Shown here: piece by piece, positions 7,059 to 52,595 of the stretch
How positions within the stretch are numbered: the stretch's first letter is position 1
How the letters are laid out: each line of letters opens with the position of its first letter
DNA from: a virus
DNA: 63,150 nt
Virus record (IMG/VR): IMGVR_UViG_3300029910_000019
Location: 1 to 63,150 of that record
Direction: 5' to 3' (one strand)
Program-made: the position numbers and the translations under genes
The notes under the pieces: generated by a model
Told to the model about the DNA's origin: nothing
Databases searched by the model: none
The model's input: the letters and a program-made list of their open reading frames with translations, nothing else

Positions 7059-7732
7059 GGAAGGGTCGGACGAATTTCCGTCGTCCTTCCTACTGGCGTT
7101 GTAGACCTAACGCGTTCGGGTCGCCCATTACTCCGGGTCCAGAGCATAGCTTGTTTTGTCTACGGCTGGTGAATTTCTGGAGCAGCGGTTGGGACGTATG
7201 CTACGTTCGGGATAACCCGGTAGACATTGGGTCTGATTCCAACCGCCGCATGGTTTGGAGCGCCCTCTCGCGCGTGTCACACCACTGGTTACGACAAGGT
7301 GTCGAAGATCAGGCCGTCGCCCAATACCAATCTCCTAAAACGCAGGCCGCTGTTCCTAATCGGTTTTGGACAGACTTGCCCGGCGAGTTTCGTACAGCGG
7401 GGATACGGTTGGAGATCGTCCGCCCGTGCCCGCTGTTCTAATACCCACCAGCCTGAACAATCTCCTCGCGCGCCGGGGGCTAACCAGCGGGCGGCTTGAC
7501 CCCGAGGAGGAACAACGACCAGCCAAATTCCATTTTCTGGAATAAACTAATTGCCGCAGGGTGCGGATTTAGACCTCGCACGGCTTCCTAGGAGCCGACC
7601 CGCCGGTGTTGAAACCCGCGGTGCCTTTACTGATTCGTGCCAACCCTGCCGCAATCAAACCCGGACTGGAGAAAGGAGGGTAAATCCAGCCCGGTAAACG
7701 GCACACCGAAGCGCGCCATTTAATCTCTATGA
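7059..7732. other. 674-bp gene-free, strongly structured region
   Basis: No plausible coding frame. It is full of inverted repeats: GCGGTTGG/CCAACCGC around 7180-7250, and an almost complete GCCGCAGGGT/ACCCTGCCGC pair enclosing about 7550-7655. The latter holds a 5-bp/7-nt hairpin with TCCTAGG in the loop. A motif-1 variant lies at 7528-7542. The region may hold decayed tRNAs or a structured RNA made from the leftward late transcript. No second tRNA with a proper T arm could be folded by eye. Confidence 0.5.
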
Positions 7733-11737: not shown

Positions 11738-12424
11738 TTACTGCGGGGATGCTTCGCGCTGGCGGCGGTTCTTTTGGGCTTCGCTTAGCTTGGCACGGTG
11801 TTCGGGCGACAGTTGACGACCTAACTTAGCTTGCCTCATTTTCTCAAGAGTCTCGGGAGAGAATTCTCGACCGAGCATCCGTTGCCTAATCTTTTCGCAC
11901 GTTTCTTCGGAGTGCGGGCCTAGCTTTACGCCGCGCGTCCGAGCGCCTATTTTCTCTTTCGTTTCCTCGGTGTGCGTTCTTCCGAAGAAAGGATTCTTTT
12001 CTCCGACCAGCAACCCCGTCAGCGTTTCACTAATCTTCTGCCTTGTTTCGGGAGCAACTGCTCGACCGTAAGAAGGACTATCTGCTCCCTTGCGAGGATT
12101 CAGCCGATTGGGGTTCAAGTCACCGTAGGAGAAGCCTTCTCCGCCGTGGGTGCTGTTGTATCCAAACTTGCGATCAGAGGATCGTAATTCTTTGATCCAT
12201 TTCCGTTCCGCGTCGTCCAAATCATCTACGTTGTCTACTACTTCAAGGGTAGACAGAACGAAAGCTCCGGGGCCGTACTTGCGAATAGCGTGGCTAAAGT
12301 AGATGTTTTTGCCTTCTTCGGCCAGCTTGACGTGGGAACGCCAGCGGACGTGAGGCTCTTGAACGGTCTTTCCTACGTAGACTTTTCCGTTCACAGTGTT
12401 CGTAATGCAATAGATTACTGCCAT
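11738..12424 (-). CDS. GIY-YIG homing endonuclease with NUMOD3 repeats
   Basis: 228 residues from the ATG at 12424, preceded by GGAAGG. The N-terminal nuclease domain shows IYCITNTVNGKVYVGKT (GIY-YIG), a WRSH arginine and a catalytic Glu region. The C-terminal half has several NUMOD3-type DNA-binding repeats (SEETxEKIRxRxLG, SPETLEKMRQAKLG). It is free-standing, immediately downstream of the last exon of the intron-riddled capsid gene, and may promote spread of that locus. Confidence 0.9.
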   Translation of the reverse strand: MAVIYCITNTVNGKVYVGKTVQEPHVRWRSHVKLAEEGKNIYFSHAIRKYGPGAFVLSTLEVVDNVDDLDDAERKWIKELRSSDRKFGYNSTHGGEGFSYGDLNPNRLNPRKGADSPSYGRAVAPETRQKISETLTGLLVGEKNPFFGRTHTEETKEKIGARTRGVKLGPHSEETCEKIRQRMLGREFSPETLEKMRQAKLGRQLSPEHRAKLSEAQKNRRQREASPQ

Positions 12425-12509
12425 TTTTCTCACCTTCCCGTGAGTTTTGGTTGAGGAGGCCGTGGGGAAGCACAGCCCCCTCTTCCAAACTTTTGTAAAT
12501 CTAATCCCT

Positions 12510-12571: not shown

Positions 12572-15460
12572 CTAGCTGGAGGAAGTCTGAGACTGCAACC
12601 GGCGTAGCGTCATGGTAGAACCAGGCGAATCTGTTACCTTTTCCATTATGTGGAAACGGGCAAGTCGTTTCTGTTCCGCTTGCCTCATACGGTTGTTATT
12701 CCCGTATGTCCAGACTATTGCATACCTTTGCGGGTCTTCTTCGCTTAGTCGTTCACGGTCCCGTGTGTAGGGTTCCGCCTCGTTGGCATCACAGCGTCCG
12801 AGTCAATCAGAAGAAGTTTTACCTGCGCCGATGATTTAACGCAGGGTGTTGGTATACCTTCACGGCTGTTATCTGCTGTATTACCAGCAAGATGAGTCAT
12901 TTCTGCTCACCTCTTATGGTTCCAATTCCCATAAGGTCGGACTATCGCATCACCCCGAGGGGTGTTCTATCGCTTAGTCTCTCACGGCCCCTTTCGGGTT
13001 CCGCCCTGTCAGCCATCTCAGCTTCCAAGTCAATCAGATAGAATTTTCTAACTACGGCTCTCACCGTAGCGACGCAAGTATGTCTACGTTGTAGCTGACC
13101 CACGAACTAAGCTACGTTTACCAACACAGTCGGAGGCTGGGTCTGCACACCACCGATTTGACGCGCAGGATCCGAAACCGAACCCTGTTCTGGAGCAGAC
13201 TGGATGAAGAGCTTCACGTTTGTTACTCACCGTTGCCGATGGGGCGGGTCATTTCTGCTCGCCTCTGTACGTCACCGCACAGGTCGGACTATGTCATCAC
13301 CCTCTTGCGAGGGGCAAGGTATATAGTCTCTACACGTTCCCGGATGTTCTCGGGCTTCGCTCGGCGTTTTCTCCAAAGGAGACGTTCACCGAATTAGCCT
13401 TGTGTTCGAAAGCAATTACTCGCTTAAGCTACCATTTTCAAATAGTTCTTCGATCCGTCTTCAGGATTCTTGCCGAGGAACACGGAGAAAATCGCGTCAT
13501 CGCCAAAAATGTAAGTGTTGTAGAATGTGTTACCTGAGATGGTAACAGTAGGTGCCGTGGTCGTCTGCTTGAACTTAACCCCGCCGAACTTGATGACATC
13601 TTCGTTCTTCGGGAGCTCGAACAGCATAGCGCGCATGGAATCGTCACGCTTGATAATGTCGGTCAGACCATTAAAGCTCGTGTCGTTCAATACGTCGCGC
13701 ACGACGTTGGGGTGGATGATTCCGCCGAACGAGTTGTCCATGAGAGGACGAGCGTTGACGGATGCCAGCGACTGGGCCGCAGAGCGAATGTTGTTCGCAG
13801 TGAGGTAGGAGCCGTTGGCGAGCTGGATGTTCACCAGGGAATCGACCGCAACAGCCGAGTCAGCGGTAAGCTGGACAAGGGAGTTGAGGGTGAGGGCCAG
13901 GCGATAGTTCAGTTCGTTTGCAAGGTTCTGCAACAGACCTGGGTCATCGATGGCCACGTCGAGTGCCAAGTCCGAGGAATTGATAAAATCAGCGTACTGG
14001 CCGATTGTAGCAACGATCTTCGAGCTGGACTCGCTGATGGGGGAGCCCACGGTCCCTTCCGCCGCCTGGTTCAAATTGGCTGCGAGGAGAGCGTAGGTGT
14101 AGACAGTTGTGTTTTGGAGATGCCCTTTCGGGTCACCGGGCTTTCGCCCCTCTTATGTCACCATAAGGTCGCTCTGTACGTCGCCGCACAGCTCGGACTC
14201 TATCTTCATTTCCAGATAATGGAAATGTCCGGCGTATTAGCCTCTACGGGTTCTGGTTGCCCAGTCTTCCCTCGGTATTGTCTCAAAGAGAGTTCCACCG
14301 ATATAGCCGGATTTTACTTCAGCACATTAATACTGAATCTGGTTTCCCTGCCGAAGAGGCAGAGGGCGCTGCTTGGTCATGCTCAAAAAGGGCGTTTGGG
14401 CCTTGAGATTGGGCACGGCCTCGCGTTCATCATTGTGTTTAGGCCGCCAGCATCTCTGATGGGGCGCTCTGCATATCGCTATGCAGTTCAGACTGTATCT
14501 TCAGTTTCTTCAAAGCAATTAGGCGAAGATAAAGTTCTTCCCGTTTGGGCGGGCAATGAACCTTGTGGCCTAATCCAACGTATTCCATTCCAGCTAGGGC
14601 CTCGTCTCTCTTGACTACGAGATACGGAAGCGTGTGGAGGAGAAACTGCTCAATGTGGAGTTTGTTGAACAAAGACCACTGGAAACAATTCCTTTTTCCT
14701 TTACTTCGAACGTCGCCGCCGTACAGTTTCTTGCAAGAATCAAGCACGGTCTTGTCGTTGTTCGAGATGGTCACGATCAGATGGTAGCAGATAACACCCC
14801 GAGAGAGGGTTTTGTTCACTCGGATGCAACCTTCGCCATCAAAGAAACCAGCCATGTAGGAGGGTTCTGCTTTGAGGTAACTGCTGTTCGTCTCAGTCGT
14901 TACGGACCCGTGTTGCTTCATTTCCTTGAGTTTTTGGAGGTATCCATGTTTCTGGTCCTCGGACAGATTTTCTCTGTTCTCAATAAACTCAATCAGAACG
15001 TCAGCTTGTTCCCTTTTGTATCTCAAGTAGGGCAGAATAGCTTTAAGGAAAGCAACGGTAGAAGGGAAGGATTGCAGGTACCAAATGTACCAATCCTCGC
15101 CTGCCTTGTTGTTTACATTGCGGGTAAAGCTGCCCCCGAAATGTAGCACAGACCACTGCATCAAAGCTCTTGATTTATTGCTCAAGTATACTTTGGGTTC
15201 GAAGTAGGTCTTGCTTCCTCGTTTGTGGGTGGCGATCCGGATGCAACCTTCTGCATCGAAAATCCCAGCCATGTAGCTTTTGGTTTTCTCTTTCACGGTT
15301 TCCTCGGTATTGTCTATATCCTTATGCTACCACACCTAGTAGTAAAAGTCAACAGAGTTTCACCGATTTAGAACAGTTTTACTTCACCAAGAATTTAGTG
15401 AATGGCCACCAAGTTCGGTAGCGCGCCAGATGTAACGATTGATGCAGGAGAGTAACTCAT
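12572..15460 (-). CDS. Major capsid protein (N4 gp56-like), six exons
   Basis: Exons: 15460-15397, 14430-14332, 14103-13426, 13216-13109, 12862-12839 and 12630-12572. Joined they give 1,032 nt, 343 residues and a TAG stop, with the frame preserved at all five junctions. The product begins MSYSPASIVTSGALPNLVAI. It continues through FLSMTKQRPLPLRQGNQIQ, TEG-like EGTVGSPISES, IGQYADFINSSDLALD, FGDDAIFSVFLG and GSVSDPARQIGG to a basic end (MTLRRLQSQTSSS). This is the order of an HK97-fold capsid protein of the N4 gp56-like family and close to its usual length. It lies just downstream of the scaffold and portal genes. The family call is by pattern; splice sites are inferred from frame, P1 pairing and the terminal G of each intron. 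Confidence 0.88.
12631..12838 (-). ncRNA. Group I intron E (208 nt) in capsid gene
   Basis: The P1 helix is perfect: exon CCTGCGT pairs with GCGCAGG (12828-12822), with the U.G wobble at the cut. The P7 region reads CGACTAAGCG ... CAATAGTCTGGAC (12720-12708). A motif-1 variant (12641-12655) forms a hairpin (TTTCCA/TGGAAA) ~10 bases from the 3' splice site. The intron ends in G before exon 6 (ATTCGCC). It has no open reading frame. P4-P6 resembles intron D. Confidence 0.85.
12863..13108 (-). ncRNA. Group I intron D (246 nt) in capsid gene
   Basis: The core reads AGACTAAGCG ... GCGATAGTCCGACC (12948-12935), with a CACCCC/GGGGTG P8 hairpin, and P4-P6 close to intron E. The exon boundary GTAGCTT^TGAAG equals that of intron C. 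P1 is less clear than in A, B and E: GTAGCT can pair with AGCTAC nearby. A second parse ending the exon at CTACGGT would leave an in-frame TAG and is disfavoured. Confidence 0.75.
13217..13425 (-). ncRNA. Group I intron C (209 nt) in capsid gene
   Basis: P4-P6 strand TTCGGTGAACG ... AACGCCGAG, then AGACTATATACC ... GACATAGTCCGACC (13292-13282 region) for P3/P7. It is inserted at GTAGCTT^TGAAG, and its terminal G is at 13217. P1 would be a short-looped, partly wobble helix, so the 5' site is set mainly by frame. Confidence 0.78.
14104..14331 (-). ncRNA. Group I intron B (228 nt) in capsid gene
   Basis: P1 is perfect: exon TTCAGT pairs with GCTGAA (14323-14318), U.G at the cut. P4-P6 reads ATCGGTGGAACTC ... 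ACAATACCGAG, nearly as in intron A. The P7 3' strand is GATAGAGTCCGAGC (14204-14191). Between the P7 strands an exact motif-1 copy with 8-bp arms (CATTTCCA/TGGAAATG, 14208-14226) forms the P8-like hairpin. The terminal G precedes TCTACACC. Confidence 0.88.
14431..15396 (-). ncRNA. Group I intron A (966 nt) with endonuclease gene
   Basis: P1 is perfect: exon TTCACT pairs with GGTGAA (15388-15383), U.G at the cut. P4-P6 reads ATCGGTGAAACTC ... GACAATACCGAG. A LAGLIDADG gene fills most of the intron, and its last codons overlap the P7/P9 segment (GATACAGTCTGAAC). The intron ends in G immediately before exon 2 (ATGAACGCG). Its core is the close relative of intron B. Confidence 0.88.
14439..15296 (-). 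CDS. Intron-encoded LAGLIDADG homing endonuclease
   Basis: 285 residues with two LAGLIDADG helices, YMAGIFDAEGCIRI near the N-terminus and YMAGFFDGEGCIRV at about residue 145. The protein should therefore act as a pseudo-symmetric monomer. Both motif ends have the acidic residue that binds catalytic metal. It starts with GTG and lies wholly within intron A, ending eight bases before the 3' splice site, so its coding sequence doubles as intron core. Predicted function: cutting intronless capsid alleles at the intron A site. Confidence 0.9.
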   Translation of the reverse strand: MKEKTKSYMAGIFDAEGCIRIATHKRGSKTYFEPKVYLSNKSRALMQWSVLHFGGSFTRNVNNKAGEDWYIWYLQSFPSTVAFLKAILPYLRYKREQADVLIEFIENRENLSEDQKHGYLQKLKEMKQHGSVTTETNSSYLKAEPSYMAGFFDGEGCIRVNKTLSRGVICYHLIVTISNNDKTVLDSCKKLYGGDVRSKGKRNCFQWSLFNKLHIEQFLLHTLPYLVVKRDEALAGMEYVGLGHKVHCPPKREELYLRLIALKKLKIQSELHSDMQSAPSEMLAA

Positions 15461-17551: not shown

Positions 17552-19620
17552 TAAACGTCTGAGCCAAATCCGGTTTGGGCGGAGGGTTCTCCTGTTAATT
17601 CAAGGGGTTCCACAGATTTCTTAAAGCCTTCCCTTAATACATCCCGGGCTGCTCTTGCGATATTGCTGCTGTCGTCCCTTTGCTCAGCCGCGGCATCTTT
17701 CTGCGCCTGAAGCTGTGCTTGGGCCTGCGCCTTTTGTTGAATCTGCCCACCCTGCGATTGCTGTTGTTGCCGCTGAAGATCTTGCGGGGTCATGTCCACG
17801 ATCACGTCGTTCAGGTTCTTGAAGTCGGCGGCCTCAAACCACATGTGGACCACCTCCATCACGTTGACCTTCTTGCCTTCGATCGAGAGCGAGGAGATGA
17901 CTTCGGGGTTGGACAGGAACTGAGATAGCATCGGGAGCGCTTGGGCCATGTTGCGGCGCGTCTGCATCTTGGACCCAGCGAGGATGGAGAACTTCACTCG
18001 GGCGTTCAGGATGTCGATCACGTCGCCGCCGGACTGCACGTACTCGTGCTTCAGCTCTTCCGACATGATGAAGTTCAACTGCGACTCGGGTAGCATCTCC
18101 CGGTTCATTTGCTGCATGTCGTAGAGCAGCGGCACGATGACCTGGTCGGCCAGATTGTCGATGAACTCCGAGATGCCCGATGACGCGCCCTGCGCAAGAG
18201 CCTGAGCTCCGGCAGAACTGCGCGCGAGATTGGAGTGGCCCGAGGAACCTGCGTTGCCGCCCATGATCGGGTTGTTGCCCGAGACGGTGTCGGCGCGGCC
18301 CTGCGACATCGCCATAAGTTCCCCGGCTTCGGGGATGGCGGGCAGGCGCTGAAGCGGCTCAAGGTCGCCCTTGGTATCCACCTCGATGATCTTGCCGGGG
18401 CAGATGCGGATTGACTGAGTTGGGATGCTCTTGCCGCGGACGCGGACGAGCGGGGTGTTCAGGTTCAACGAGGCGTTGTCCAGCAGCAGGTTGGTGATGC
18501 CGGTCATCAGGCGCTGCTCGGAGCCGATCGTGCGCCCGAGGCCGAGCGACCAGTACCCGCCGGGGATATTCCACCAGCCGATAGAGTAGAACGGGATCTT
18601 GCCGTAGACGTTCTTGCCGTTGTAGATGACCAGTTTCTTCTGGAGCACCACGATGTACGTGCCGTTGTCCCACCGCTCCAGTACCTCTAGGGGTTTCTGG
18701 AAGGGGTCGGCGGTCGTGGTATCCCAGCGGGCTTCTGCACGGGCTTCCCAGAGCGGGTTGCGCCCGCCGATTTCCCCGATAGCCGGATCAGCCGTCTCTG
18801 CGGGCGGCATGAACAGCATCATGAGGTTTTCGCGGGACGGGATATCGTATCCCTCGCGGTCCCGCAGCTTGTCGAGGTCTTCCCACGTCATGTAGCGGCG
18901 GCGGACGACGTACTTGGCCTTGCGGATGTCCGGAACACGTAGCCCGGGGTCTACCAGGACTTCGCGGAGGTCTACGATGTGCTCGAACGTGGGCCGGTCG
19001 ATTACTTCTTCGATGATCTCTTCTTCGAGTTCACCATCGGAGATGCGGGTGTCAGGCGCGCCGGGGATTCCGGACGGAATTACGACGGAGGGGTTCTTCC
19101 GCTTGACTATTTTGCGCTCTTGGGTGAACTTTTCCCAGCCCCATTGGAACATGGAGGTGCCAAACAGCAGGCAATTGAAGATTCCGAGCTTCAGTTCGGC
19201 CCGGAAATCCATGTCGTCGAGCTGGTAAGCAAGCAAAGCGGAGGTCGCGCGCGCCAGTTGGGCGGTCGTTCCGGGCCGTTCCTGCACCATAAACGGCGGG
19301 TTTTCGTAAAATAACCCGGACATTACCTGCGGAACTATGCCATTTACAGCCGTTGCGACCGTGAAAAAGCTGATCGAAGCGGCCTCAGATTGGGTTCCGG
19401 GCCAGTATCTGGGCTGAAAAGGGGACTGGTAGAGGGTCTGTGCGGCTACCCAGCCGAGGCAAAATTGCCTACTCAACTCAGCTTTCTCAGCGCGTTCCGC
19501 GTCTTGAAGACATAATTTGAGGGCTGGATTTTCTTCCCACACGCCCTCGGACAAAAAGCCCCGTGCTTCGGCAGGTGTTACCTGCTCATAAACGTTATAT
19601 GGGGCTTCCGGCAAGTTCAT
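17551..19620 (-). CDS. Portal protein
   Basis: 689 residues, matching podovirus-type portals. It has an N-terminal helical wing and a long beta-rich clip/stem region (IPFYSIGWWNIPGGYWSLGLG, then ITNLLLDNASLNLN). A helical crown follows with SSAGAQALAQGASSGISEF, and a long Gln/Ala-rich C-terminal helix (QQQQSQGGQIQQKAQAQAQL). It sits between terminase and scaffold on the same strand, as expected. Its first 26 bases overlap the end of the upstream GIY-YIG gene, so that gene probably inserted at the portal start. Confidence 0.85.
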   Translation of the reverse strand: MNLPEAPYNVYEQVTPAEARGFLSEGVWEENPALKLCLQDAERAEKAELSRQFCLGWVAAQTLYQSPFQPRYWPGTQSEAASISFFTVATAVNGIVPQVMSGLFYENPPFMVQERPGTTAQLARATSALLAYQLDDMDFRAELKLGIFNCLLFGTSMFQWGWEKFTQERKIVKRKNPSVVIPSGIPGAPDTRISDGELEEEIIEEVIDRPTFEHIVDLREVLVDPGLRVPDIRKAKYVVRRRYMTWEDLDKLRDREGYDIPSRENLMMLFMPPAETADPAIGEIGGRNPLWEARAEARWDTTTADPFQKPLEVLERWDNGTYIVVLQKKLVIYNGKNVYGKIPFYSIGWWNIPGGYWSLGLGRTIGSEQRLMTGITNLLLDNASLNLNTPLVRVRGKSIPTQSIRICPGKIIEVDTKGDLEPLQRLPAIPEAGELMAMSQGRADTVSGNNPIMGGNAGSSGHSNLARSSAGAQALAQGASSGISEFIDNLADQVIVPLLYDMQQMNREMLPESQLNFIMSEELKHEYVQSGGDVIDILNARVKFSILAGSKMQTRRNMAQALPMLSQFLSNPEVISSLSIEGKKVNVMEVVHMWFEAADFKNLNDVIVDMTPQDLQRQQQQSQGGQIQQKAQAQAQLQAQKDAAAEQRDDSSNIARAARDVLREGFKKSVEPLELTGEPSAQTGFGSDV

Positions 19621-20542
19621 TTTTGTTCCTCGGGGCGAATTTGGACGGTCTTAGAGCCGTTCCAACGCTCTTTAATCGGTTGCGAACCGTAGCAGATGTG
19701 CAGCCGAGAGCCTGTCCAACTTCCTTCGTGGACATTCCGGACTGATAAAGTTCGAGCATCCTGTTGGTGTTTAGGCGCTCTTGAGGTAGATTATTGGAGG
19801 GTCGGAGAGCGATGGAGAGGCCGTCTAGCCTTCCTTTGACGCACCCCATTGAGCATCCCAGAGTATCCGCAACTTCCTGAAGCGTAAGTCCGCTTTGGTA
19901 AAGGCGCACCAAGCGGACGCTATCTACGTCCGAGCGGTATAATGGGTTTGATTCGCCGCCAATAGACCGTTTGTTGACCAAACATTCGGGGCGAATTTTA
20001 TACCCGTGCCTGTGCCGACCCTGCCCGACTAGAACACCAGCCTTCTTCATGCGCAGGGTTACCAACTCGGTCGAGCAATTGAACTTGGCGGCGATCTCTT
20101 TGCGCGTCAGCATCTCATCAACGTAGAGATGTCGAATCTCTTCGGTCGAAATATCAGCCCGATAGTGGCTATGTCGAGTAGGATCCGCGGCCAGCGTAGC
20201 TTTGAGAGTCTTGGCCCGAGCCTTCCGCATGTGCGGACTGATGCCGGTCCACCCGTCTCCTCCCCAAGTGCAGACATACCCGTGCTTGGAGATGTGCGCG
20301 CCGAAGAGGAGAATCCAGATGCGTTCCTGGTAGTCAGCCTCGGCTTTCGTCTCAACGGTGAGAAACGGCTCGCAGGTAAAGTTCTCGACGCCGTATTTCC
20401 GCATAGCCTTGTAGAGGGGCTGTTGTTCGCCCTTCCGTAGGTCTTTGAGGTGGTTTCTCCACCGATGCGGGACGCCGCATTTGGTCTGGCCAACGTAGAG
20501 TTTGTCGTTGACGTGGTTCTGAATCAGATATATGGTGTACAT
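19595..20542 (-). CDS. GIY-YIG homing endonuclease with HTH repeats
   Basis: 315 residues. The N-terminal GIY-YIG domain has YTIYLIQNHVNDKLYVGQT, a WRNHLKDL arginine and a Glu in YQERIWILLFG. Three C-terminal helix-turn-helix repeats follow, for example RLYQSGLTLQEVADTLGCS and ELYQSGMSTKEVGQALGCT, which would read the target DNA. It is free-standing beside the portal gene and overlaps its start. Probably a mobile passenger. Confidence 0.9.
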   Translation of the reverse strand: MYTIYLIQNHVNDKLYVGQTKCGVPHRWRNHLKDLRKGEQQPLYKAMRKYGVENFTCEPFLTVETKAEADYQERIWILLFGAHISKHGYVCTWGGDGWTGISPHMRKARAKTLKATLAADPTRHSHYRADISTEEIRHLYVDEMLTRKEIAAKFNCSTELVTLRMKKAGVLVGQGRHRHGYKIRPECLVNKRSIGGESNPLYRSDVDSVRLVRLYQSGLTLQEVADTLGCSMGCVKGRLDGLSIALRPSNNLPQERLNTNRMLELYQSGMSTKEVGQALGCTSATVRNRLKSVGTALRPSKFAPRNKNELAGSPI

Positions 20543-33237: not shown

Positions 33238-33330
33238 ACCGAGACCCGGCGGTATCCGGGTTAGCTCCCCTACAACCTGGCCGCCAAGTGGCGGGGAGCG
33301 GGCAACGGGTTTATCCCGGCTAATAGGTTG
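33238..33330 (+). other. Structured leader with three hairpins
   Basis: ACCCGG/CCGGGT, GCTCCCC/GGGGAGC and CGGG/TCCCG hairpins occur in the 109-base gap before the gene at 33347. This may be a structured leader RNA or attenuator. No riboswitch consensus was recognised. Confidence 0.35.
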
Positions 33331-33346
33331 AGAAAGAGAGGGTTAC

Positions 33347-49751: not shown

Positions 49752-49988
49752 GTGAAGATTTCAGTCACCCAGCATCACATTGACTCAGGGGTTCGGGGAA
49801 GTTGTACCTCGGACCCTATTGCTTTGGCCCTCAAGGATCTAGGTTATGAGCGGCCCTGGATCGGCGTGCATTACATCCGGTTGGACAAGGTAGACGTACA
49901 CATGCCGTCCGAGGTGTACGAGTTCTTGAAGAGATTCGACAATGGTTTACCGCCGCTCGATCCGTTCGAGTTTTCGCTGGAGTTCTGA
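49752..49988 (+). CDS. Small hypothetical protein
   Basis: 78 residues: MKISVTQHHIDSGVRGSCTS, DPIALALKDLGYERPWIGVH. A frequent small phage protein of unknown role. TGATG junction with the helicase start. Confidence 0.6.
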   Translation: MKISVTQHHIDSGVRGSCTSDPIALALKDLGYERPWIGVHYIRLDKVDVHMPSEVYEFLKRFDNGLPPLDPFEFSLEF

Positions 49989-51010
49989 TGCCCGCTAAGA
50001 AGCAAGCCCCCAAGCCGATCGCTCTCAACGAAGAGCAGCAGGCCGTGGTGTACGCGCGCGCTGGATTCTATCAAATTCTTGCCGGGCCGGGAGCTGGTAA
50101 GAGCCAATGTGTGACAACCCGGTTCGTCCAGTTGCTAAACGAAGGAGTCTCTCCGGACGACATTGCCTCCATGTCCTTCACTAGTACAGCGGCCAAGAAC
50201 CTCAAGGACAGGGTCGAGGCTCAAGTAGGGAAGCTAACCACCACACGTAAAGCAGGCGCTACCACCTTTCATGGGCTGGGACTTGCCTTCGCGGTAGAGG
50301 AGCGCGAACACTTTGGATACGAACTCGCCGAATTTCCGTTATGCCCTGAGCCTCTGGCAAATAAGCTATCCGCTATTGCCGGAAAACGATTCGAAGCTGA
50401 TCCCCGCTCACTGCGCGCCTACATCAGCCTTAGAAAACGGGAACGGGTTCGTGCTTCTGCGGCTGTCTCTAGAGCTGAGGCTCGCCTCGACGCCCCGGAG
50501 CTGAAGAACGCACTTGCCTACCGTCAGTACGAGAAGTCTTTGAAAGAGAACGGGGTGCTCGATTTTGACTCCCTCATCCTAGAGATGGTCGAGATTCTGG
50601 AGAAGAAGCCCGAGGTCCGCAAGCGCTGGACACGCGGCTGGATTATGGTGGACGAGGCGCAGGACTGCGCGAAGATAGAATGGGATCTGATCAAGCTGAT
50701 CTCGGGCAGGTCGGTTATGGCGGTTGGGGATATTTCGCAGGGTCTCTACGCGTTCAGAGGAAGTGATCCAGCGCTATTCGCCCACATGTCCGAGATGTTC
50801 CCGGGAACTAAAACGCTGTTCCTGGCCCGCAATTACAGAAGTTCACCACAGATCGTAGACTTCATCCGGCCTTACGCTACGTCGGCTGAACTGGCAGAGA
50901 AGTTCCATACGTCGAATCCTGCGGGCCCCCTGCCAGTTGTGAAGGGGTTCGCAAGTAGTGCTCAAGAAGTAGAATGGATAATCGCTCAGATAAAGGAAAC
51001 AATAAAGTGA
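49988..51010 (+). CDS. UvrD-family helicase, N-terminal half (split gene)
   Basis: 340 residues with superfamily-1 motifs: Walker A AGPGAGKSQC, motif Ia SFTSTAAKNLKDRV, motif II MVDEAQDCAKIEWD, motif III MAVGDISQGLYAFRGSD, motif IV LARNYRSSPQIVDF. It ends IAQIKETIK at a TGA that overlaps the next GTG. Motifs V and VI are in the gene at 51762. Intact UvrD proteins have both, so this is half an enzyme whose partner is translated separately. Confidence 0.88.
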   Translation: MPAKKQAPKPIALNEEQQAVVYARAGFYQILAGPGAGKSQCVTTRFVQLLNEGVSPDDIASMSFTSTAAKNLKDRVEAQVGKLTTTRKAGATTFHGLGLAFAVEEREHFGYELAEFPLCPEPLANKLSAIAGKRFEADPRSLRAYISLRKRERVRASAAVSRAEARLDAPELKNALAYRQYEKSLKENGVLDFDSLILEMVEILEKKPEVRKRWTRGWIMVDEAQDCAKIEWDLIKLISGRSVMAVGDISQGLYAFRGSDPALFAHMSEMFPGTKTLFLARNYRSSPQIVDFIRPYATSAELAEKFHTSNPAGPLPVVKGFASSAQEVEWIIAQIKETIK

Positions 51011-51765
51011 GTAGGAGAGGACAGGCCCGAAATATCCCAATGTTGGGAAAGAAATTTGGGAAGCTGACAGTTTTAGAGCGGGCAAATGGGCTGAGAAACG
51101 GGCGTTATTGGCGTTGTGAATGCGAGTGCGGGCATAGTAAGGTGGTGTTTGGTAACGAACTGCGGCGAGGAAGTACTTGGCATTGTGGGTGCTCCAACAA
51201 AGCAGTTATCGACTTGGTGGGAAGAAGATACAACAGGTTGCTTGTCTTGGGGAGGGATCTTGAGAAAGAAAGGGAGAGCAAGAAGAGAAAGGTATGGTGG
51301 AAATGCGCTTGTGACTGTGGGAACCTTAAAACCATATGCAGTTCTGATTTGACTTGGAAGCACATTCAAAGTTGTGGATGTTTTCTAAGAGACACCCGGG
51401 GACAGTCCACCTTGAAGCACGGTTTGGCTAGAGTGGGCGCAAAAACATTAGAGTACACAATGTGGGCGCACGCCAAGAAGCGAGCCAGAGATCGGAATAT
51501 TCCTTTTGACATCAAGCCGGAAGACATTGTCATTCCCGATAAATGTCCTATATTCGGGACACCGCTGAGGTCCAGCAAAGGCAACGGAGGCAAGATGACT
51601 TCAAACAGTCCTTCTCTTGACAGAACCATTGGTGAGCTTGGCTATGTCAAAAGCAATATTAGCGTTATCAGCCGAAGAGCTAACACTATAAAGAATGACG
51701 CCTCTTCAGAAGAACTAAGGGCTATCGCCAATTACATCGATAAGCAGACCAAAGAGGCCGCGTGA
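51007..51765 (+). CDS. HNH-family homing endonuclease inserted in helicase
   Basis: 252 residues from a GTG that overlaps the helicase stop (GTGA). Two zinc-ribbon units (CECECGHSKVV...GC; CACDCGN...SCGC) precede a C-terminal HNH-like block: PDKCPIFGTPL, SPSLDRTIGELGYVKSNISV and ISRRANTIKNDAS. It is free-standing between two helicase halves. Its stop overlaps the start of the second half in the same GTGA fashion, so the insertion was accurate. Confidence 0.85.
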   Translation: MSRRGQARNIPMLGKKFGKLTVLERANGLRNGRYWRCECECGHSKVVFGNELRRGSTWHCGCSNKAVIDLVGRRYNRLLVLGRDLEKERESKKRKVWWKCACDCGNLKTICSSDLTWKHIQSCGCFLRDTRGQSTLKHGLARVGAKTLEYTMWAHAKKRARDRNIPFDIKPEDIVIPDKCPIFGTPLRSSKGNGGKMTSNSPSLDRTIGELGYVKSNISVISRRANTIKNDASSEELRAIANYIDKQTKEAA

Positions 51766-52595
51766 CAGAAAAGCAAACAATTAGCATCCTAGCCAGAACC
51801 AATCGCGCGCTACTTCCTTTTGAGCAAGCGCTGTCGGCCGCCAACATACCCTTTTATTACGTGAATAAGAGTGGATTTTTCAACCAGACGGAGATACAAC
51901 TAACTCTTGCCTACCTCGGGGCCTCCCTCTTTCCCGCGAATTACCTCATCTCTGGTATGCTTCGGGGCGATCTGCACCCGACCAAATTTCTCCCGCGTAC
52001 TCGAATCTCCGCGAAGCTAAAGGAGTTGAAAGCCGAAGATGAAGACGCCTCCTACTGGGCAATCCTTACTAAGGAACCGCAGCGCCTGGTCGAGCCCCGC
52101 AATTTGGAAGCTGTCCGTAATTTCACGCAGTTTGTGCATAGCCTGTCCCGCTACCGCGACCTGTCTGCCGCCGACGCCCTTAAACAACTCTTCGGCGCTC
52201 TCCGGATAGGAGACCACTTCTCAGAGATGGAGTACGCAGACTCGGACCCACTGGAGAACCTGGCGGCTCTATCCAAGATGGCAAGCAAGTACGGTTCAAT
52301 CAAAGAGTTTTTGGATTTCTGCCGGAGGGTCGCCGCAGCGTCTAAGAAAAAGACCGGCGTGGCCTTATCGACCTGTCATAGTTTCAAAGGAATGGAAGCC
52401 GATACGGTGTACCTCGTACAGTGCTCGGAGGGTATAATCCCGCACAGCAAAGCGACTGATCTAGACGGGGAGCGTAATGTGTTTTTCGTAGGCTGCTCTA
52501 GACCTCGCCGCGAACTTGTGATAAGTTATTCAGGAACCCCCAGTGTGTTCCTTGCGCCGTTTATAAAGAAGGAGAAAGCTGATGTTCAAGCCTAG
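51762..52595 (+). CDS. UvrD-family helicase, C-terminal half (split gene)
   Basis: 277 residues from a GTG in a GTGA overlap. It begins TEKQTISILARTNRALLPFE, the segment that follows the 1B/2A region of UvrD. It includes motif V ALSTCHSFKGMEADTVYLVQ and motif VI ERNVFFVGCSRPRREL. It pairs logically with 49988-51010. If both halves fold together, the enzyme works as a two-chain helicase. Confidence 0.88.
   Translation: MTEKQTISILARTNRALLPFEQALSAANIPFYYVNKSGFFNQTEIQLTLAYLGASLFPANYLISGMLRGDLHPTKFLPRTRISAKLKELKAEDEDASYWAILTKEPQRLVEPRNLEAVRNFTQFVHSLSRYRDLSAADALKQLFGALRIGDHFSEMEYADSDPLENLAALSKMASKYGSIKEFLDFCRRVAAASKKKTGVALSTCHSFKGMEADTVYLVQCSEGIIPHSKATDLDGERNVFFVGCSRPRRELVISYSGTPSVFLAPFIKKEKADVQA

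Follow-up and report, generated by a model that had tools for sequence, protein, structure and literature searches.

Group I introns in phage genes have been described several times. In the cluster J mycobacteriophage LittleE, the major capsid gene contains a group I intron with a homing endonuclease, and the N-terminal sequence of the virion protein was read across the splice site (PMC3706429). In crAss-like phages, the capsid gene is split into five fragments, and ‘yet unknown expression mechanisms’ were suggested for RNA polymerase (RNAP) genes with stops and frameshifts (PMC7886860). Jug phages contain many group I introns, on average 18.5 per genome (PMC12363816), and phage introns were also published for Bastillevirinae (PMC11878797) and in a review (PMC3984707). 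Mini-introns are not described in the available parts of the crAss-like and Jug accounts. The DNA analysed here is the IMG/VR virus record IMGVR_UViG_3300029910_000019, which comprises 63,150 bases and is called the window as a whole; the subject is a soil-phage capsid gene on its minus strand. While LittleE has one intron in this gene, the gene in the window, known here from sequence alone, has five full-length introns (A to E) and one coreless insert of 46 nt. The crAss-like and Jug phages share the richness in introns, but the load of the phage in the window is concentrated in a single gene. The 46-nt insert is probably a coreless group I-like intron that is spliced by the core of a neighbouring intron on the same transcript.

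The first-pass annotation had described a major capsid gene split by five group I introns, with a joined product of 343 residues. Its coordinates, lengths and stop-free join of 343 codons are present in the sequence as written, and the split by five group I introns is borne out by the match of the 343-aa join to the major head protein family phrog_1357 (E 1e-16) together with the intron evidence. The junctions of A (15396-14431) and B (14331-14104) are exact as they coincide with empty sites in intronless relatives. At the other three (C, D and E), residues of the join face gaps in ten close intronless relatives. This was checked by alignment to 11 uninterrupted homologues, among which the distant protein of Tunturi_3 aligns less clearly at C, D and E. 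Splice-aware alignment gave the same corrected borders with each of four intronless reference proteins (L001, L003, L009 and L013; L numbers denote related loci). The predicted product is thereby shortened from 343 to 327 aa (984-nt coding sequence) and is 93.9% identical to that of the intronless L001 without a gap. An exon given as 24 nt measures 22 nt, and a further exon of 17 nt had been missed. Five full-length introns were correctly counted, but the total of interruptions is six, the sixth being the coreless 46 nt. Exons of 64, 99, 662, 66, 17, 22 and 54 nt are separated by interruptions of 966, 228, 227, 46, 225 and 213 nt. Over the whole 2,890-nt capsid gene, the window shows 0 mismatches to each of the contigs L029, L030 and L033, whose IMG sample numbers differ, and an assembly error is therefore unlikely. 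The exons and full-length introns are given below; R1 is a covariance model built from an alignment of 21 introns of the D/E class, of which the sequences of D and E are part.

15397..15460, minus strand: capsid exon 1, 64 nt, ATG start (alignment to intronless relatives)
14431..15396, minus strand: group I intron A, 966 nt, with endonuclease open reading frame (ORF); empty site, P1 TTCACT/GGTGAA, RF00028 27.1 bits
14439..15296, minus strand: LAGLIDADG homing endonuclease ORF within intron A (PF00961, E 1.2e-11)
14332..14430, minus strand: capsid exon 2, 99 nt (alignment to intronless relatives)
14104..14331, minus strand: group I intron B, 228 nt; RF00028 53.0 bits, R1 21.5 bits, empty site
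13442..14103, minus strand: capsid exon 3, 662 nt, corrected (splice-aware alignment)
13215..13441, minus strand: group I intron C, 227 nt, corrected borders; RF00028 50.9 bits, R1 54.6 bits
13149..13214, minus strand: capsid exon 4, 66 nt, corrected (splice-aware alignment)
13086..13102, minus strand: capsid exon 5, 17 nt, absent from the first-pass annotation, codes for WVSYN plus part of V (splice-aware alignment)
12861..13085, minus strand: group I intron D, 225 nt, corrected borders; R1 177 bits, covariation
12839..12860, minus strand: capsid exon 6, 22 nt (splice-aware alignment)
12626..12838, minus strand: group I intron E, 213 nt, with a 5-nt correction of the 3' end; R1 191.6 bits, covariation
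12572..12625, minus strand: capsid exon 7, 54 nt, stop TAG included (splice-aware alignment)

Introns A to E are group I introns and are predicted from their sequences to be self-splicing. The P1 helices reported for A, B and E were found again with 6, 6 and 7 bp, with the U.G pair and without mismatch; after correction, C (7 bp) and D (6 bp) also have a P1 with U.G and one mismatch each. All five introns end in G after border correction, in a border search that favoured G. The P7-type segments reported for B to E are seen in B, C and D (as the pattern in the twin contigs L028/L029) and in E. An Rfam scan for group I introns supports this only in part: B and C reach the gathering score, A stays below it (a match limited to the 3' part, gathering 50), and D and E gave no match even at E 10. 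The best PHROGs family of the intron A ORF is labelled HNH endonuclease. Intron A had no R1 match. Within the D/E class (21 introns, P7 included), 49 pairs were found with 96.6% of the cells paired, compared with 33-41% when slid, and changes on both sides occur at 40 of the 49 pairs. A catalytic core P3-P9 with P7 is thus found in B to E, for B and C at Rfam gathering and for D and E by covariation. When the 63-kb window was scanned with R1 (E<=1), four places were obtained, namely introns E, D, C and B, of which C and B are absent from the model; the group I cores detected in the record therefore lie in the capsid gene.

The sixth interruption lies between exons 4 and 5, and intron D begins 17 nt downstream of it. 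Its features are as follows.

13103..13148, minus strand: coreless mini-intron, 46 nt (length not divisible by 3), ending in G and with a TAG in frame (splice-aware alignment)
13130..13143, minus strand: mini-intron guide, 14 nt, complementary to exons 4 and 5 across their ligated junction
13110..13117, minus strand: Px strand ACGTAGCT, which can pair with exon 5 AGCTAC(aa)CGT (read by eye)

The guide consists of the P10 strand GACCCA (13143-13138) followed by the P1 strand GCCTCCGA (13137-13130). It pairs with the exon 4/5 junction in a P1 of 8 bp and a P10 of 6 bp, with a single U.U mismatch, in P1, and a U.G pair at the 5' splice site; 0 of 193 decoys score as well. The scripted best helix for this insert differed from Px (p=0.062). 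There is no room for a catalytic core P3-P9 in the 46 nt, and neither R1 nor Rfam gave a match there. If the insert were retained, translation would stop at its TAG and the C-terminus would be destroyed. Taken together with the comparisons below, it is strongly implied that the insert is excised from the RNA.

Such minis occur in two clades of related capsid genes. For clade 1, the best 80 of 93 matches were used; other locus lists comprise the best 80 of 89, 277, 172, 170 and 177 relatives. Clade 1 contains 16 distinct minis of 32-59 nt, which in the numbering of the L001 coding sequence lie at sites 89, 96, 120, 555, 804, 891, 892 and 930. Their guides form a P1 of 7-9 bp with U.G and at most one mismatch and an adjacent P10 of 3-8 bp, and the two halves meet at the junction. 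For P1 and P10 together, 0 of 3,088 decoy junctions were as good as the 16 minis. The mean P10 was 5.3 bp in minis and 2.1 bp in full-length introns (p 3.5e-7), and a third helix between insert and exon (Px) was obtained with p<=0.022 in 11 of 16. Border mapping and refinement reward a U before the insert and a G at its end, while P1/P10 have a small weight in refinement; the refinement shifted none of 15 minis and only that of L042 by 4 nt. Compensatory changes of guide and exon were observed between same-site minis, with two pairs at site 89, one at 120, two at 555 and five positions at 892.

The sister clade is about 38% identical and was reduced from 141 loci to 75 non-duplicate contigs, 55 without insertion and 20 with full-length insertions. 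Nine of these 20 carry minis, giving nine distinct ones of 35-72 nt, each of which has a guide and contains a stop in frame. With the shift (<=8 nt) of the best guide score chosen for each, seven beat all of their 213 decoys and two were reached by one decoy. The partial copies L028, L032 and L075 were left out of the counts for both clades, as was a 244-nt insertion at 128 in L267, which has no convincing P1, ends in T and belongs to an incomplete gene. The intron at 828 of L076 was added by hand from a truncated R1 match. L174 and L208 aligned poorly, because the stretches taken for them missed the gene.

The guides also bear on the kind of machinery. A protein-based reaction, in which an endonuclease cuts and an RNA ligase rejoins with the guide as splint, could make use of them, as the guide would keep the exon ends together for ligation. 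However, U.G at the 5' site and the terminal G are signatures of group I introns, and no RNA ligase was found among 20 scanned ORFs of the window, which was partly searched, or in a set of 8 proteins. Protein-based splicing of this kind is thus considered unlikely.

Across both clades there are 25 distinct minis of 32-72 nt. Fourteen of them are not multiples of 3, and an in-frame stop is present in all 25 (16 of 16 in clade 1), compared with 64% of shuffled minis. Inserts of similar size (32-72 nt) with in-frame stops and local hairpins, all of which the minis show, would also be expected if they stayed in the mRNA and ribosomes hopped over them, as in T4 gene 60 or mitochondrial byps. This is very unlikely, since the take-off codon equals the landing codon in 0/16 and 0/9 minis (in-frame placements within 9 nt). 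Bypassing moreover has no need for the exact match of a guide to the ligated exons at a U...G pair, which the minis have, and minis are seen only in genes with full-length introns.

This last association is pronounced: of 55 genes that have full-length introns, 24 contain minis, compared with 0 of 76 that lack such introns (p 2e-11). In all 27 occurrences a full-length insertion lies downstream of the mini at a distance of 16-182 nt. In clade 1, 14 of 17 minis are located within 39 nt of the downstream full-length intron, compared with 18.9% of unoccupied sites. For 22 of the 25 distinct minis, R1 detects a downstream group I core within the gene concerned (E<=0.01); for the mini of L059, the downstream core is supported by a sub-gathering Rfam match alone (30.3 bits). 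The neighbours of C-terminal minis are mostly compact introns of the D/E type, and those of N-terminal minis mostly longer insertions (>=611 nt, the size of endonuclease-bearing introns). Both kinds are compatible with a requirement for group I cores in general, but also with co-conversion. The same figures argue against the mini as a very small self-splicing ribozyme that requires no other core. Its recurrent P1-P10 arrangement, often with Px, does juxtapose both splice sites; yet the 76 genes lacking a full-length intron carry no mini, and no conserved linker bases were seen by eye across the clade-1 minis, so that a ribozyme of this size appears highly improbable.

When joined in silico, 14 of 15 mini-bearing clade-1 genes are free of stops (L076 is partial). 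The sequence downstream of the minis is under purifying selection, with dN/dS of 0.043 at dS 2.3 for L059/L070 and pN/pS of 0.09-0.25 over the compared pairs. Identical minis were found in several contigs with different sample numbers. At sites 96, 120, 555 and 930, some phages have a mini and others a full-length intron, which suggests an origin by core loss; the minis may thus be derived from full introns that lost their core. A related but quite unlikely explanation regards them as dead remnants in defective capsid genes, tied to full-length introns by co-conversion only. It would account for the minis at intron sites, some of which by eye resemble the 5' end of a full intron located there. 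It does not agree with the purifying selection and the recurrence of the same mini across samples, nor with the presence of two clades, guides covarying at four sites and stops in 25/25.

The preferred reading is therefore that of a borrowed core, which is proposed because the mini has no P3-P9. The minis carry what a group I core needs in its substrate, namely P1, P10, U and G, and nothing of the core itself. For the 327-aa protein to be encoded, six pieces would have to be removed from the capsid mRNA, five of them (A to E) by their own cores. In the sixth, the guide would pair with the end of exon 4 (P1) and the start of exon 5 (P10) and bring the splice sites together; the 3' site may in addition be anchored by another helix with exon 5. 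As a hypothesis, a neighbouring core performs the excision: a full group I core, most likely that of intron D just downstream, would carry out both transesterifications on the mini. GTP would attack after the U in the first step, and in the second the exons would be ligated with the last G of the mini in the G site. The strong P10 and the third helix might replace the usual tether of the 3' splice site by P9. The downstream position would be understandable if the core still has to be present in the transcript when the mini is synthesised. On balance, the minis are likely to form a natural class of non-autonomous, guide-only group I-like introns of 32-72 nt, excised by the core of a neighbouring intron on the same transcript.

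Several points weigh against a borrowed core. The tie to full-length introns could reflect co-conversion during homing rather than a catalytic need, the downstream direction alone is weakly significant (p 0.1 and 0.023), and the association statistics treat related genes as independent. Px is significant in only 11 of the 16 clade-1 minis and amounts to 4-5 bp in two sister-clade minis. For the minis of L264 and L266, no neighbouring core is visible to R1 or Rfam. At site 891, that of the window, six comparisons of minis gave no compensatory change, and all share the U.U mismatch in P1. The mini-bearing L066 keeps an unexplained frameshifting insertion of 10 nt. A de novo scan for guides only returned noise, with 12 hits on the minus and 26 on the plus strand of the window and 11-17 in shuffles (threshold 28). 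Where homologues are lacking, a guide is thus indistinguishable from noise. A search for spliced junctions in viral contigs gave 0 matches and was uninformative.

The capsid gene is a hotspot of full-length introns as well. The 80 related loci contain 124 sequence-distinct insertions, 108 full-length at 37 sites and 16 short, after four calls were dropped (three poorly resolved insertions of L055 and a 25-nt call in L066 that is really a 10-nt insertion). The latter, a frameshifting insertion at the known intron site 879, has a U before it and a G at its end and no room for a guide. Full-length insertions, one to ten per gene and at recurrent sites, occur in 35 of 56 sequence-distinct complete genes and are absent from the other 21; this is no chance pattern. 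The highest load was observed for L079 and L080 with ten full-length introns each, and the D/E model sees cores in 8 of the 10 in L079. To our knowledge, up to ten full-length introns is the heaviest load of a single phage gene. Core testing covered part of the full-length insertions; R1 found 44 places in 28 loci among the insertions of the relatives, and Rfam three introns in 12 loci. Turnover is fast, as L006 and L007 have 93% of exon bases in common and no intron site. The first-pass annotation had called five introns in one capsid gene exceptional, which needs tempering given the relatives with ten full-length introns and the crAss-like capsid gene published in five fragments (PMC7886860).

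Some insertions of 611-1,202 nt with a good P1 seem by homology to end in A, not G (L064, L072 and L078 at site 555, L066 at 120, L061 and L063 at 218, L202 at 60 and L207 at 136). Flanking genes are nearly intron-free, with two insertions when 98 reference ORFs were compared with the loci. In the portal gene as a control, insertions were called in 12 of 49 distinct genes (29,066 codons in the 49). None of those inspected in four loci (L015, L025, L027 and L062) is group I intron-like; the other eight calls (L011, L012, L013, L016, L018, L019, L031 and L034), judged from positions and borders alone, lie near gene ends. The portal gene of L027 has an in-frame open insertion of 1,023 nt that ends in HN before T and is probably an intein. 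The viral contig L035 contains a permuted tmRNA (7171-7414, RF04321, 77.4 bits).

The window carries a tailed-phage module on the minus strand with terminase (24510-22456), portal (19620-17551) and capsid gene (15460-12572), and its six-frame list has 44 ORFs of at least 200 aa. The nearest annotated phage found is Tunturiibacter phage Tunturi_3, in which the major head protein gene is not interrupted; the L001 product is 38.9% identical to this protein. Relatives in the genome collection are three contigs, two from one Acidobacteria metagenome-assembled genome (MAG) and one from a Candidatus Sulfotelmatobacter MAG. Directly downstream of the capsid gene lies the following feature.

11738..12433, minus strand: GIY-YIG/NUMOD3 homing endonuclease gene (PF01541, PF07460)

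It is possible that this gene mobilises the ORF-less introns. Another GIY-YIG homing endonuclease-like ORF (19595-20542, minus) overlaps the start of the portal gene. On the plus strand, a DNA helicase is encoded in two ORFs at 49988-52595 (phrog_1967 positions 151-441 and 480-669), split by an HNH/endonuclease VII-like ORF with overlapping ORF ends. An HDV-like ribozyme match is found at 33264-33332, plus strand, in this phage record (RF02682, 45.0 bits, gathering 44).

Capsid genes with several introns have already been published, whereas the repeated pattern of coreless mini-introns suggests a new kind of tiny intron. None was found in the open-access literature among the matches listed, which does not show their absence elsewhere in print. 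If the proposal is true, group I introns would have a non-autonomous form, as transposons have non-autonomous elements, natural introns of group I chemistry would be as short as 32 nt, and one ribozyme would remove two introns. The heavy intron load sits in the capsid gene, whose product is required in large amounts. Borrowed cores could also lie behind fragmented genes in other intron-rich phages for which there is no explanation so far. The minis would escape Rfam and standard gene finding, so that phage genes regarded as ‘broken’ may in some cases be intact. The arrangement would also offer a natural system, easily cloned, in which the core of a ribozyme works on a substrate equipped with a guide of its own.

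Concerning known systems, the 50-nt gap of T4 gene 60 is bypassed by the ribosome, and the mitochondrial byps of Magnusiomyces are short inserts that must be skipped. The minis are likewise short inserts to be skipped, but they lack matched take-off and landing codons and have a P1-P10 guide. Euglenoid group III introns are group II introns in reduced form that depend on functions supplied in trans. They share the concept of an intron reduced below its own catalytic core, although they belong to the group II lineage and are compared by concept alone. Group I cores reportedly act in vitro on separate P1 substrates (Szostak; Doudna and Szostak). There, too, a core works on a P1 that is not its own, but in an engineered in vitro system, whereas the mini and its neighbour would be a natural pair of introns.

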